Below, one piece after another: positions 8,004 to 13,064 of a DNA stretch of 64,000 nucleotides (positions are counted from its first letter, which is position 1; each line of letters begins with the position of its first letter). The stretch is from assembly GCA_035629175.1 (NCBI GenBank), contig DASPIL010000021.1, forward strand, positions 1-64,000. The letters are read 5' to 3'. The position numbers and the translations under genes were made by a program. Origin of the DNA: Verrucomicrobiia bacterium. GTDB lineage: Bacteria; Verrucomicrobiota; Verrucomicrobiia; Limisphaerales; DASXHY01. A model generated the notes under the pieces. It made no database searches. It saw only the letters and a list, made by a program, of their open reading frames with translations, and was not told the origin of the DNA.

Positions 8004-10079
8004 TCACTGGGCGAGCCGATAAAATCTGCTGGAGTCAGCGCCCGGAACAATCACCGCATTGTTGGTGATTCCTGCAACAGGCTGCCATTCTGGAGTAATG
8101 AGGTCGACCGCTTGTTCCAGTGCATAACCCACATAACCGGCCGGCCAGGATACGACCGCGCCAGCCGGAGAGCTTTGAACCGAAAGTGCGGGCGCGGGTG
8201 AGAGACTGGGAACGAAAATTCCACTCGCCCTGGCCGCACCCAATCCCGCGATCTCGGATGCAGATAGCGCGCGATCCACGAACGCGATACTGCTCACATA
8301 GAGCTCGTGCGTGTAAGTTCCCGAACTGTCTCCCTCATTAAACAGCAACAGGTCGGGACCTGGATCCTGATTTGAATAAAGGGCCCAGCGCCCGCCAATC
8401 CCATCGGCAGCCCGCGTCTTGACGTTCGTTCCATTGACGTAATACGTGAGCGTGTTCGCTACAAGGTCGGCGACGAACGCCACGCGGTTCCAAGTGCCGG
8501 GCGTGATGACGCCTGCCGCGGAATACCCACCGCCGCCGATTCCGACCGAACCATCCGCGGCAAAATAAAAGTCAGCATCATTCAAATTGAACGGATCAGT
8601 GTTGAACAGTGCGGTCCAATCCAATGGCCCCGGCTCCATCACGTCAAAGAGCAGGGTGTAGCGATTGATCGAGGCGTTTGTGCCCGTATTGGGACCACTG
8701 CCTGAAAAACTCAGGTGGTAGCCGTCCGTGTCGGAGGCAAAAGCCGGGACATGCATATAGGTGGCAGGCATCCCCTCGATGTGCGGAACGGTGCCGCCAT
8801 CGGTCGTGCCGAACGAAGTGAGACCCGCGTTGCCGGGGTCTGCATGAGCCAGGACACCGTTCCCGAGAGCGGCGCTCAGGTCGCCTTCGGTGAAACGCCA
8901 CTCATAGGGAGTGTAGTTCTGGACCGTAAACGTGACTTCGTTCGTTGCAAGAGTCTCGCCAGAACCGGCGATCAGCGTGTAGGTGTGCGTCGAGCCACCG
9001 CGAAGGAGGCCGCCGCTGGATGACTTGATTGCCTTTGTGGCAGCGGATGTGATTTCGATCGGCATCGGAACACCATCGAGCAGCAATTGAATCGAGTTGG
9101 TATTGATCACGTCATCCGGATCAAGAATGGTCGCCTGAAAAGAAAAGTTCGGCGCAACATTCGTCTCCCCTTGTGCAGGCGACATCGACGTCAGTGCTGG
9201 AGCCTGGCTCGGAAAAAGCAAAGGCGTTGGCGAAGCCGCCTCGCCGATCCACCCGCCCATCCCGGCGACCTCCGCGTCGGTCAACGGCCGATTCCATACC
9301 GCCGCAGTGCCTGCAAGACACCATGCGTCTTCCCAGTTGTCGTCTGCAAACAGGTGGAATCGATCCAGTTCCAAGGCCCATCGCCCGTCAATGGCCTGGC
9401 CGGGTCCATCGAGGATCAACGTTCCATCCACGTAAACGCGGAAGAAGTTTCCGTTGTCGACGGACCACACGATTCGGTGCCATTTTGTTGCATCAAACGT
9501 GATGGTTGAATACCCAACGCCTGAAACGCCGACGACGGCGTTGGAAACGGATGAGGCATTCACCCAAAGGTCGGCATCATTGGCGTTACCATTGAGCGAC
9601 GTCTGGTACAGACTGTTCCAGCCAACACCCGCGAAGAAATCGACGGCAATCGTGTACTTGTTGATGTACTCGCCGTCGCCTTTCCCTTCCGCCCCAATGC
9701 CGTGATACACCGTCAGGAAATCAAAGCTCCGATCCTGGACGATTCCACCATCGCTATACTTGGTATGCCACGATTCCACCCCAAGATCAGTCCACGGACC
9801 CAGCAGGAAGTTGGCATTGTCGACATGGCTGTTTACGAGATTCGCACCGATCGTCGCGGTCAACTTGTCTGCACTGTTCTGAAAACGCCAAAGTCCCGTC
9901 ACGCCCGGGGGAACGTTTGCCGCCTCGAGGTGGCCCGCGCCAATCAAAGCGAGCGAGAAAAGCGCTGCGTTCATCAGTAGCGGCAGCCGCGTTCCCCTGA
10001 TTTCACCCCCCTGATGGGTTGTCCCGACTGCCAGGCATCCATGGATGCGAGGCACGGCCGAACGTTTGGTAGTATTCAT
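8004..10079 (-). CDS. Secreted LamG (concanavalin A-like) protein with two lectin-like domains
   Basis: About 691 residues from the Met at 10079. An upstream ORF start at 10148 and an internal Met at 9974, just before the hydrophobic signal segment (MNAALFSLALIGAGHLEA), are alternatives. Two LamG/concanavalin-A-like modules are visible, one near residues 90-300 and one near 430-640. Each has the KWHRIVW/TWNRVAFVAD, YVDGT/YVNGT and RPLTDAEVAG/RALSASEIAG strands typical of LamG_3. A Big/Ig-like linker with NVAPNFSFQ lies between them. The C-terminus (YALEQAVDL...SSRFYRLAQ) is a small beta domain often found at the end of secreted verrucomicrobial proteins. It probably binds or displays at glycans; there is no catalytic motif. 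It is the first gene of the minus-strand glycan cluster. Confidence 0.75.
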   Translation of the reverse strand: MNTTKRSAVPRIHGCLAVGTTHQGGEIRGTRLPLLMNAALFSLALIGAGHLEAANVPPGVTGLWRFQNSADKLTATIGANLVNSHVDNANFLLGPWTDLGVESWHTKYSDGGIVQDRSFDFLTVYHGIGAEGKGDGEYINKYTIAVDFFAGVGWNSLYQTSLNGNANDADLWVNASSVSNAVVGVSGVGYSTITFDATKWHRIVWSVDNGNFFRVYVDGTLILDGPGQAIDGRWALELDRFHLFADDNWEDAWCLAGTAAVWNRPLTDAEVAGMGGWIGEAASPTPLLFPSQAPALTSMSPAQGETNVAPNFSFQATILDPDDVINTNSIQLLLDGVPMPIEITSAATKAIKSSSGGLLRGGSTHTYTLIAGSGETLATNEVTFTVQNYTPYEWRFTEGDLSAALGNGVLAHADPGNAGLTSFGTTDGGTVPHIEGMPATYMHVPAFASDTDGYHLSFSGSGPNTGTNASINRYTLLFDVMEPGPLDWTALFNTDPFNLNDADFYFAADGSVGIGGGGYSAAGVITPGTWNRVAFVADLVANTLTYYVNGTNVKTRAADGIGGRWALYSNQDPGPDLLLFNEGDSSGTYTHELYVSSIAFVDRALSASEIAGLGAARASGIFVPSLSPAPALSVQSSPAGAVVSWPAGYVGYALEQAVDLITPEWQPVAGITNNAVIVPGADSSRFYRLAQ

Positions 10080-10155
10080 ATATCTGGTTTTGTATTCCGA
10101 TGAAGCGTTGGTTCGAATGTCTTCGTATGATCTGCGCGGATAGGGCAAGGGGGCG

Positions 10156-10533
10156 CTACGGCGTCACCTGGGAGGCGCCCCATTTTTGCAAATCGTCTTT
10201 GTGTGGTTGCACCAAGGCGTGCTTGAGCTGAGCGTTGCACCGCTCGCAAACAGCAGCGCCTTCAGGTCCCGGTACTTTGGGTCGCAGAGTCAGATGCTGG
10301 TCATTCGCACATCGATATCCCACAACTTCTGCCAGGGCGTCCTCCTTGCACTTAGGACATTTTTCCAGGAACACCTTGCGCTCCGTGAACATCTTGCCCC
10401 TGCACTTCTGGCAGAAATAGCCGTTCGCATCTGTCTCAATCGCTTCACTGCCTGGCTCCGGGAAACAACCCGCGAGAACCAGACATATCACTGCTGCGAG
10501 CAAAGATTCAAAGATGAAAAAACGCGACTTCAT
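10156..10533 (-). CDS. Small zinc-ribbon lipoprotein, unknown function
   Basis: About 125 residues from the Met at 10533, chosen because it opens a lipoprotein signal (MKSRFFIFESLLAAV...LVLAGC). The mature part carries CQKC, CPKC, a single Cys in GYRCAND and CERC, so seven cysteines apart from the lipid-anchored one. This looks like one or two rubredoxin-like or zinc-ribbon knuckles facing the periplasm. I do not recognise a named family. It lies between the prepilin-like gene and the LamG gene on the same strand, with short gaps, so it may be transcribed with them. A metal-binding role is inferred from the cysteines only. Confidence 0.65.
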   Translation of the reverse strand: MKSRFFIFESLLAAVICLVLAGCFPEPGSEAIETDANGYFCQKCRGKMFTERKVFLEKCPKCKEDALAEVVGYRCANDQHLTLRPKVPGPEGAAVCERCNAQLKHALVQPHKDDLQKWGASQVTP

Positions 10534-10578
10534 GAGCCACAAACGCGTCCGCCACATGCATCCGCCAAACGAGTTGAG

Positions 10579-11337
10579 TCAGGGGTCGGCATCTGTTCCG
10601 AGGTAAATTGCGGTGATGTATTTTGTGTCCGGCCGGGCGCTGACAAATTCAGCGTGTCCGTCGCAGAAGGATATATTTCCGCCGCTCGCCCCGTGATTAT
10701 CAATCGGATCAGGAAAGTTGCTTACATCCGTGCGCGTGCTTTGGTACGCCGAATCGCCATCCAAAAAGAGACAGGCACGCGACGGACCCGCCGCCATGCC
10801 TTTGTAGCCTGCATTATACGGAAATATGGATGTGAACTGGTAAACCCATGACTGGACGTTGCCTTGAGTTTTGGCCGCCGGAACGGGAGTGGGTTTCCCC
10901 TGGTCACCCCACCATGAAAACAACTCGTAGCTGGAACCCGGCTTCAGCGTTTTGTTGCCTGCATAGGACAACAAGTCGCGGAGAACCATTGGACCTGCAG
11001 GCGGAGGGCTGGGGACCCAGCTGTCCCGGATGAAATTCTGTGTGCCAGGACATACAAACGAATTCATGTTCGGAATGTACGCCTTGTAGAGCCACGTCTG
11101 GTTGTCGTCCGAGGGATCCACTGTCGGCGCGAACTGGCCTTTTCGATTTTCGTCAGAATACATGATGCTGCCGAGCGTCAGTTGTTTCACGTTGTTGAGG
11201 CAACTGATCCGCCGCCCCTTGTCCTTCGCCTTGGCAAGCGCCGGAAGGAGCATGGCTGCGAGTATCGCAATGATCGCGATGACTACCAGCAGCTCGATCA
11301 GGGTAAATGCACGCTGTGTCTGTCTGCTGGTTTGCAT
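10579..11337 (-). CDS. Prepilin-like (type II secretion/pseudopilin) protein with H-X-DG tail
   Basis: About 252 residues from the Met at 11337, which gives a short basic leader ([10 protein letters not shown]) directly before the class III signal [16 protein letters not shown] longer frame to 11508 adds a leader without typical features. The peptidase site would be between Ala and Phe instead of Gly and Phe, which is common in Verrucomicrobia and Planctomycetes paralogues. A hydrophobic helix is followed by [19 protein letters not shown]. The C-terminus has [18 protein letters not shown], close to the 'H-X9-DG' processing-associated motif but with ten residues between His and Asp. These genomes carry many such proteins and their individual roles are unknown; a secreted or surface pseudopilin fits. 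Confidence 0.87.
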
Positions 11338-11729
11338 AATGCGAGACGCTTGAAAAACGCCAGACGTTGGGCCTGGTCTGGGACCGGCATGAACCCTACT
11401 CGATGGCGCCGCCTGGATCGATGTCTCACCTTCGTGATTTTTCAGACGGACACGCATGCCTCGGGTAAAGCTCGGTTTGGGTTCTGCGGAAAACTTTACA
11501 TGGTGCAAATGCTTTCTCCATACCCTGTTTTAGGGAGACTTCTGGTACGGCGGGGCCTGGCGCATTCGCCTGCTTCAGGCTCTTCGTCAACAAACCCTGA
11601 ATCAATATGATCTGATCGCGCACCTGCAGATCCCCACGGGAATGGCCGACGTTCTGCCAGGATTCCACACGCACGCGACTGCCAAATCTGGAACTTGAGG
11701 TATTTGCCGCCGTGGCTTAAAGAGGAGAC
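11338..11729. other. Intergenic region between divergent prepilin-like and LuxR-type genes
   Basis: This 392-base stretch separates two divergently transcribed genes and must hold both promoters. I see no confident -35/-10 pair. A purine-rich AAAGAGGAGAC stands immediately before the GTG start of the regulator at 11730 and could serve as its ribosome binding site, although the spacing is short. Confidence 0.4.
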
Positions 11730-13064
11730 GTGTTCAAGAAACGTCCAAGAACTCGACGCCATCCGGTTACTGATTCATCGGTGTCTGGCGGGCTTTCGAA
11801 GATGGAATCCGCTTACTGGGGGCAACGATTGTTCAAAAACACGTTCACCTACAAGGGGCGCAGAAGAAAGGTGAACGCCTGGTCTGTAAAAATACAGTTA
11901 TTCGGCAAGCGCAAAACCTTTTCTCTCAGTTCGAGCGACCCAGCCGAAGCAGCAATAGAGGCCAGCCACATCTATCAAACCATCAACAGCCAGGGCTGGG
12001 ATGCTGTCGGGCAGCGCCGTGGCAGGACAGGATTTCATCCGCCACTCGCTGAATCCAGAGCGGCTGCCACCGCCTCGACGGAACTTGGCCCGGAGTATTG
12101 GAAAGGACGGTTGATCCATCGAAAACATCCCGAGCCGGCCAGCGCCAGCGGCGAACGCTCTCTCTCGGTGCGCATCGAGCATTCCGGCGTCAGCCGGTAT
12201 TTTCCGTTGGGCACGGGAGACGAAAGCCGGGCGGCGATCCAGGCAATGCACATTTATCAAGTGGTCGCCAGTCAGGGTTGGGGGATCGCCAACCAAAGAT
12301 TTGCCAGGGAGCTCACCCTGGCCTTTCGCTGGCTGGAAGATCCCCTGGCGTGGACTTATACCACGTTACACACCCGGACCAACTCGGATGCACCCGTTTT
12401 TCTCCCAGGCTCGAAGTCGAAAGCTGCGAAACGAACTGTTGCCATCATAGAGCCCGATGCTGGCATTCGAAACGCGCTGATCGTCTGTGCCAACAGCCAG
12501 GAGGGATTCGGGTGTTGCGCTGCGTACAGCGGTGTCGCTGAAGCCATGCGCGAAATCACCCGGCGGCGCATTGACCTGATGATCGTCAACTACGCGCTCC
12601 CCGATCAGCCTGGCTCGAGCTGCCTGGAAGCGTTGGACAAGGAAAAGTCCGGCACGGTTGGCCTTCTCTACTCGGTGTTTGAAGATAGCGACCAGCTTTT
12701 CAAGTCCACGCCCGGAGGAGCGGTTGGATACATGTTAAAGCGCACGCCAACCAGCCGGATTTTCGATCCCATCGCGCAAACTGCTGGCGCACTGACGCGC
12801 GAAGTTATTGCACTGAAGATTCGCGAATATTTTCAACGGCTCGTTGCGGCAATGCCGTCGGGCCCCTCAGCCCTGGATATGGCCAGGCTCACTCCACGAG
12901 AACTGGAAATTCTGACGCTCCTCGCCAAAGGCGATCTTGCGAAGGAAATTGCCGACTCCCTGGACATCAGCGTGTGGACCGTGCATGGCCACGTAAAGAG
13001 CATCTTCGAGAAGCTCAACGTGCATACGCGGACTGAAGCCGTCTTGAAATTCCTGCAAAAATAG
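11730..13064 (+). CDS. LuxR-type regulator with duplicated integrase-arm-like N-terminal domain and degenerate receiver
   Basis: A 444-residue cytoplasmic regulator of unusual build. Residues about 29-93 and 123-187 are two copies of one module: YW-G-RL, a short basic stretch, SVKI/SVRI, FSL/FPLG, a D-(P/E) turn, AAI-A-HIYQ and SQGW. This resembles the arm/SAM-like N-terminus of verrucomicrobial tyrosine recombinases, but no recombinase catalytic domain follows. Residues about 235-345 are a receiver-like domain: AIIEPDAG carries part of the acidic pocket and MLK the conserved Lys, but the phospho-acceptor position in DLMIVNYALPDQPG is Asn287 and not Asp. Residues about 386-444 are a classic LuxR/GerE HTH (LTPRELEILTLLAKG, VHGHVKSIFEKLNVHTRTEA). 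It starts at GTG after AAAGAGGAGAC; Met25 is an alternative. Its targets are unknown. It is probably not switched by phosphorylation. Confidence 0.8.
   Translation: MFKKRPRTRRHPVTDSSVSGGLSKMESAYWGQRLFKNTFTYKGRRRKVNAWSVKIQLFGKRKTFSLSSSDPAEAAIEASHIYQTINSQGWDAVGQRRGRTGFHPPLAESRAAATASTELGPEYWKGRLIHRKHPEPASASGERSLSVRIEHSGVSRYFPLGTGDESRAAIQAMHIYQVVASQGWGIANQRFARELTLAFRWLEDPLAWTYTTLHTRTNSDAPVFLPGSKSKAAKRTVAIIEPDAGIRNALIVCANSQEGFGCCAAYSGVAEAMREITRRRIDLMIVNYALPDQPGSSCLEALDKEKSGTVGLLYSVFEDSDQLFKSTPGGAVGYMLKRTPTSRIFDPIAQTAGALTREVIALKIREYFQRLVAAMPSGPSALDMARLTPRELEILTLLAKGDLAKEIADSLDISVWTVHGHVKSIFEKLNVHTRTEAVLKFLQK

Follow-up and report, generated by a model that had tools for sequence, protein, structure and literature searches.

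The window analysed here, a 64,000-nucleotide stretch of a Verrucomicrobiia genome (contig DASPIL010000021.1), carries a gene for a NarL-type transcription regulator in which two domains homologous to the arms of tyrosine recombinases precede a receiver that has lost its phospho-acceptor and a LuxR-type helix-turn-helix (HTH). This architecture is conserved across the order Limisphaerales, the proteins that bear it form a single clade, and their genes are linked to pseudopilin genes. We think it probable, if by no means assured, that the protein regulates independently of phosphorylation and that its repurposed arm domain or domains would bind DNA together with the HTH, probably at the divergent pseudopilin cluster; the binding and its targets are what we infer. 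The features on which this proposal draws are collected in Table 1.

Table 1. Features of the regulator gene and its neighbourhood, in window coordinates.
Feature	Coordinates	Strand	Basis
Regulator gene, 444 aa, GTG start, stop included	11730..13064	+	ORF; full-length homologues in same order
Repeat 1, residues 29-93, recombinase arm-like, basic	11814..12008	+	
Repeat 2, residues 123-187, second arm-like domain, less basic	12096..12290	+	
Linker, residues 190-218, conserved RELTxAxxWxxxPxxWTYTTLHT	12297..12383	+	
Receiver domain, residues 237-345, phospho-site lost	12438..12764	+	Pfam PF00072; NarL/FixJ fold matches; active-site counts
Pro242 codon, replaces second metal-binding acidic residue	12453-12455	+	
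Asn287 codon, phospho-acceptor position	12588..12590	+	
LuxR/GerE helix-turn-helix, residues 386-439	12885..13046	+	Pfam PF00196 E = 2.7e-17
Intergenic region between regulator and divergent pseudopilin gene, putative operator	11509..11729	.	gene order
Pseudopilin gene (N_methyl, DUF1559), putative likely target	10579..11508	-	Pfam/NCBIfam
Small zinc-ribbon-like protein, same divergent cluster, also at L115	10156..10557	-	
Large secreted LamG/Big_5-like protein, divergent cluster	8004..10148	-	weak Big_5 match

The regulator gene is real, since full-length homologues occur in other genomes of the order, and its GTG start is supported because several of these homologues begin with the same M-x-K-x-RP motif. 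Pfam places a receiver at residues 237-345 (1.6e-8) and a GerE domain at residues 386-439 (2.7e-17) and returns no significant match before residue 230. A receiver fold followed by a GerE HTH is the order found in NarL/FixJ-type regulators, which are also the best matches among solved structures. Phage_integrase is absent from the Pfam matches to the protein, and so the regulator has no catalytic domain with the RKHRH + Tyr set. In one homologue (G014, L023:1501-2844), a TGA codon in frame separates the N-terminal part from the receiver, which may mark either a pseudogene or a mistake in the assembly. The apparent second regulator ORF at L108:7842-8768 is spurious.

The earlier note on this DNA had picked out by eye two repeats of about 65 residues (29-93 and 123-187), and both are where it placed them: YWGQRL and YWKGRL at residues 29 and 123, AAIEASHIYQ and AAIQAMHIYQ at 74 and 168, and SQGW at 87 and 181. 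The two repeats are homologous to each other, aligning gap-free at 37% over 62 residues (BLASTP E = 7e-14), with a local score of 106 against a maximum of 49 among 5000 shuffles; hhalign of one against the other gives 99.3%. Chance similarity is ruled out by the BLASTP value and the shuffles. The further suggestion that the repeats resemble the N terminus of verrucomicrobial tyrosine recombinases is upheld by sequence homology: the best pair, formed with the closest recombinase found (L073), shows 53% identity over 74 amino acids (E = 2e-19), hhalign against recombinase arms scores repeat 1 at 99.86% and repeat 2 at 99.55%, and when profiles of the whole N terminus and of whole recombinases are compared, the value is 99.5% (E = 4.7e-23). 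Repeat 1 also retains the conserved Trp, Gly-x-Arg, and Ala-Ala positions of the recombinase arms. By homology, then, the repeats are recombinase arm domains.

The recombinases in question are about 450 to 520 amino acids long and carry a single copy of the domain at about residues 40 to 110, ahead of their core-binding and catalytic parts, which is the N-terminal position that the arm-binding (AB) domain occupies in complex tyrosine recombinases (PMC8138268). Phage_integrase (PF00589) was present in all 10 recombinases scanned first, in some of them under Pfam's own cut-off, and is matched by 22 of the 24 that were aligned; read by eye, their R-K-HxxR-H-Y set is apparently complete (R in GLRRxEID, K, HxLRK, RH, and Y). 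The Pfam arm-domain models miss both the repeats and the recombinase N termini, save for sub-threshold matches to DUF6538 and one match to AP2, and L071, L073, and the class-wide loci L144-L163 all hold recombinases whose N-terminal arm escapes these models.

Structure prediction, which the earlier note had proposed as a check, gave no indication of an unrelated fold. AlphaFold2, run on the N-terminal fragment from a 40-sequence alignment, returned a mean pLDDT of 84 and modelled repeat 1 as three strands and then a long helix (E16-22, E25-38, E41-46, and H52-69 in fragment numbering), as in the Tn916-type arm-binding domain, whose fold is three strands plus a helix (PMC8138268). Repeat 2 is modelled as a very short first strand (3 residues), two clear strands, and a helix, and its AB pattern is less clear. 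Foldseek with the tandem model gave no match under 1e-3; its upper matches, none of them significant, were tandem double-stranded RNA-binding domains (dsRBDs) and phage HNH/AP2 proteins, with a tandem AP2 protein at rank 28. These are small sheet-plus-helix nucleic-acid-binding domains, and at the level of predicted models they are consistent with the arm reading, if no proof of it. Perhaps the weak Foldseek result arose because domains of uncertain arrangement were compared as one body, or perhaps no close structure exists. A search of solved structures with the N-terminal profile returned weak matches to oligopeptidase A (best, 0.0027), which we took as chance.

Matches to the regulator N terminus were found in 114 of 320 genomes of Limisphaerales, and they are of two kinds: some are regulators built in the same way, and the others are tyrosine recombinases with a single N-terminal copy. 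The search for other Verrucomicrobia with the repeat-receiver-HTH order was therefore rewarded within this order. In a class-wide sample, all 20 strong matches examined were recombinases, one of them from the regulator's own order, and further matches in a phylum sample were weak (in the 1e-4 range); across the three samples (order, class, and phylum), the regulator was found in its own order only. A tree of receiver plus HTH, for which the comparison set was 18 canonical receivers from the window's genome and 1 from another, places every regulator in a single clade (100/100) that excludes the canonical receivers. Members without repeat 1 sit inside this clade at more than one place, and because they are scattered in this way, the ancestor seems to have had two repeats, with losses coming later.

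Where did the arm domains come from? In a single-arm tree, unrooted and built from only 73 columns, repeat 2 forms one clade (100/99) and repeat 1 branches among the recombinase arms, with those of L071 and L073 (96/95); one recombinase falls inside the repeat 1 group, and one regulator repeat stands beside L071. This placement of repeat 1 argues for an origin from a recombinase, and the direction from recombinase to regulator is favored because arm-bearing recombinases are spread more widely than the regulator. Thus, the comparisons favor the idea that the regulator's arm domains came from a recombinase, and mobile DNA seems to have supplied parts for gene control. A fusion in the reverse direction, in which L071/L073-type recombinases took their arm from the regulator, would change the history and not the function, and we consider it improbable. 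An unrooted tree of this length, which simply shows repeat 1 next to the L071/L073 arms, is compatible with such a fusion, but arm-bearing recombinases occur class-wide (20/20 examined), whereas the regulator was found only in its own order. As to other sources, a phage or plasmid origin was set aside, given no phage match for the N terminus and plasmid matches listed that hit the receiver or HTH alone; IMG/VR, in a search that detects close relatives only, likewise held no match for the N terminus.

If repeat 1 and repeat 2 share this ancestry, do both still read DNA? The mean net charge across the family is +9.6 for repeat 1, +2.5 for repeat 2, and +6.9 for the recombinase arms, and given the low charge of repeat 2, a single DNA-reading arm may describe the protein better than two do. 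Beyond repeat 2, the linker motif is strongly conserved and, among the proteins gathered, restricted to the regulator family, being absent from every recombinase and every other protein; it is modelled as two strands (175-181 and 189-195, fragment numbering). An alternative is that the arm domains no longer bind DNA at all and serve as oligomerization or ligand- or protein-interaction modules, such that the LuxR HTH alone contacts DNA. The separate clade and low charge of repeat 2, the regulator-only hairpin that adjoins it, and the persistence of the family after repeat 1 was lost in several branches all speak for this alternative. However, repeat 1 exceeds even the recombinase arms in basic charge and keeps their conserved positions, and we regard a complete loss of binding as rather unlikely. 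We continue to favor a DNA-binding role for at least repeat 1.

For the receiver, the earlier note had reported Asn287 in place of Asp at the phospho-acceptor site (LMIVNYALP) and had reasoned that homologues with Asp there would indicate a chance substitution. The residue is as reported, and no such homologue was found: among 50 aligned family members, position 287 is Asn in 45, Ser in 2, Thr, Arg, and Tyr in 1 each, and Asp in none, a distribution that excludes chance substitution or sequencing error. Since Asp is present in 19/19 canonical receivers, Asn287 is a conserved trait of the family. In a 47-member set, the second acidic residue (D13-equivalent) is kept in 2, the switch Thr (T87-equivalent) in 1, with Ser in 23, and the Lys in 17, whereas the canonical paralogues compared have Asp, the acidic residue, Thr, and Lys in 19/19 each. 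The window's protein has Ser315 and Lys337 and lacks the phospho-acceptor Asp and the second acidic residue; the full NarL/FixJ active-site set (Asp, acidic pair, Thr/Ser, and Lys) is thus incomplete. Judged from these residues, the receiver is dead across the regulator family. With receiver homology and no phospho-acceptor Asp, it falls in the class known in the literature as aspartate-less or pseudo-receivers (PMC4395418, PMC12632262). RitR, for instance, has Asn53 at this site (PMC4395418, PMC12632262), and Asn accounts for 16% of ALR substitutions (PMC4395418).

Could Asn287 instead be deamidated to Asp, giving a receiver that is slowly matured and still phosphorylatable? We find this hardly credible. 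Asn followed by Gly deamidates fast, but in this family the residue after the Asn is mostly Arg, His, or Tyr; moreover, 45 of the 47 members carry another residue in place of the second acidic one and 46 lack the switch Thr, and the Lys is kept only in the minority given above. The strong preference for Asn would suit such a maturation, and conversion of Asn to Asp at the phospho-acceptor site has been reported in a receiver and brought up as a possibility for RitR (PMC4395418). A receiver without phosphorylation control remains the reading that we adopt.

The genes around the regulator suggest what it may control. Pseudopilin genes were found at 13 of 20 regulator loci versus 1 of 17 control regions (Fisher p = 0.0002), LamG-like large secreted proteins at 12/20 versus 2/17 (Fisher p = 0.003), and TPR-sulfotransferases at 9/20 versus 0/17 (Fisher p = 0.001), p-values that are rough, the controls being hand-picked regions from related genomes without the regulator, mostly first contigs and some of them shorter. 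Two control regions that held regulators were excluded from the comparison. At most regulator loci, the nearest such neighbor gene is upstream and divergent. The gene types of the window's own cluster (8004-11508, minus strand) recur beside regulator homologues across the order, and the TPR-sulfotransferase gene that often adjoins the regulator elsewhere (e.g., L108:6241-7785 and L115:10501-12081) is missing beside the window's copy. A search upstream of the regulator family for a conserved operator motif found 8- and 9-mers that did no better than resampled controls.

These neighbors also bear on a different function, in which the regulator recognizes the DNA sites bound by the arms of arm-bearing recombinases and controls or prevents excision. 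Because repeat 1 groups with the L071/L073 arms, the site specificities could overlap, but the neighbors are pseudopilin and secreted-protein genes rather than mobile-element genes, and in the window's genome, which is 96% complete, neither single-sequence nor profile searches found an arm-bearing recombinase. There, the regulator N terminus occurs once, and the regulator itself is the sole match to the whole-recombinase profile. Control of a mobile element is, therefore, highly improbable in our estimate; a recombinase partner in the same genome was rejected by the same searches, and because the genome has none, the regulator is independent of arm-bearing recombinases.

In total, we posit a NarL-type transcription regulator that would no longer be under phosphorylation control and that has acquired, at its N terminus, two domains homologous to recombinase arms. 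In this model, repeat 1, which is basic, would bind specific DNA as an integrase arm does, as might repeat 2, and the LuxR HTH would bind a second DNA site. The Asn receiver would act as a dimerization or interaction module and not as a switch, and repeat 2 and the linker may have a structural role. The regulator would act at sites composed of several parts, and the likeliest place for these is the region that it has in common with the divergent cluster of pseudopilin, LamG-like, and sulfotransferase genes. More tentatively, we speculate by analogy with the arm and core of an integrase that these proteins could represent a new, one-component-like class, in which domesticated arm domains and the LuxR HTH bridge separate DNA sites and so control a pseudopilin/secreted-protein cluster without phosphorylation.

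Here a DNA-binding domain from mobile elements appears to have become part of a host transcription regulator, a concrete example on the scale of a single domain, in which the donor family can still be recognized at about 50% identity. The pseudo-receiver, with Asn as a trait of a whole family whose members are many and diverse, is useful for understanding how pseudo-receivers work without phosphate, and the linkage to pseudopilin and secreted-protein genes suggests a testable function for poorly described genes of Verrucomicrobia. In the literature searched, which took in few subscription papers, we found no precedent for a regulator built from recombinase arm domains.

How does the regulator compare with known systems? 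It shares with the Int-Tn916-type AB domain (PMC8138268) a sequence homology to arm-bearing verrucomicrobial recombinases, the N-terminal position, and, for repeat 1, the predicted three strands and helix, but it has two copies and not one, lacks a core-binding and catalytic domain, and has a receiver and LuxR HTH attached. The order of receiver and GerE HTH is that of NarL/FixJ response regulators, from which it differs in the missing phospho-acceptor Asp, the altered metal site and switch residues, and an N-terminal extension of ~220 residues. Like RitR and the aspartate-less receivers (PMC4395418, PMC12632262), it has lost the phospho-acceptor and, as in RitR, has Asn at the site; unlike them, its output domain is LuxR-type and not OmpR-type, the Asn is family-wide, and recombinase arm domains stand at the N terminus. 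Each of the modules is known, and what is new is their combination on a pseudo-receiver NarL-type regulator.
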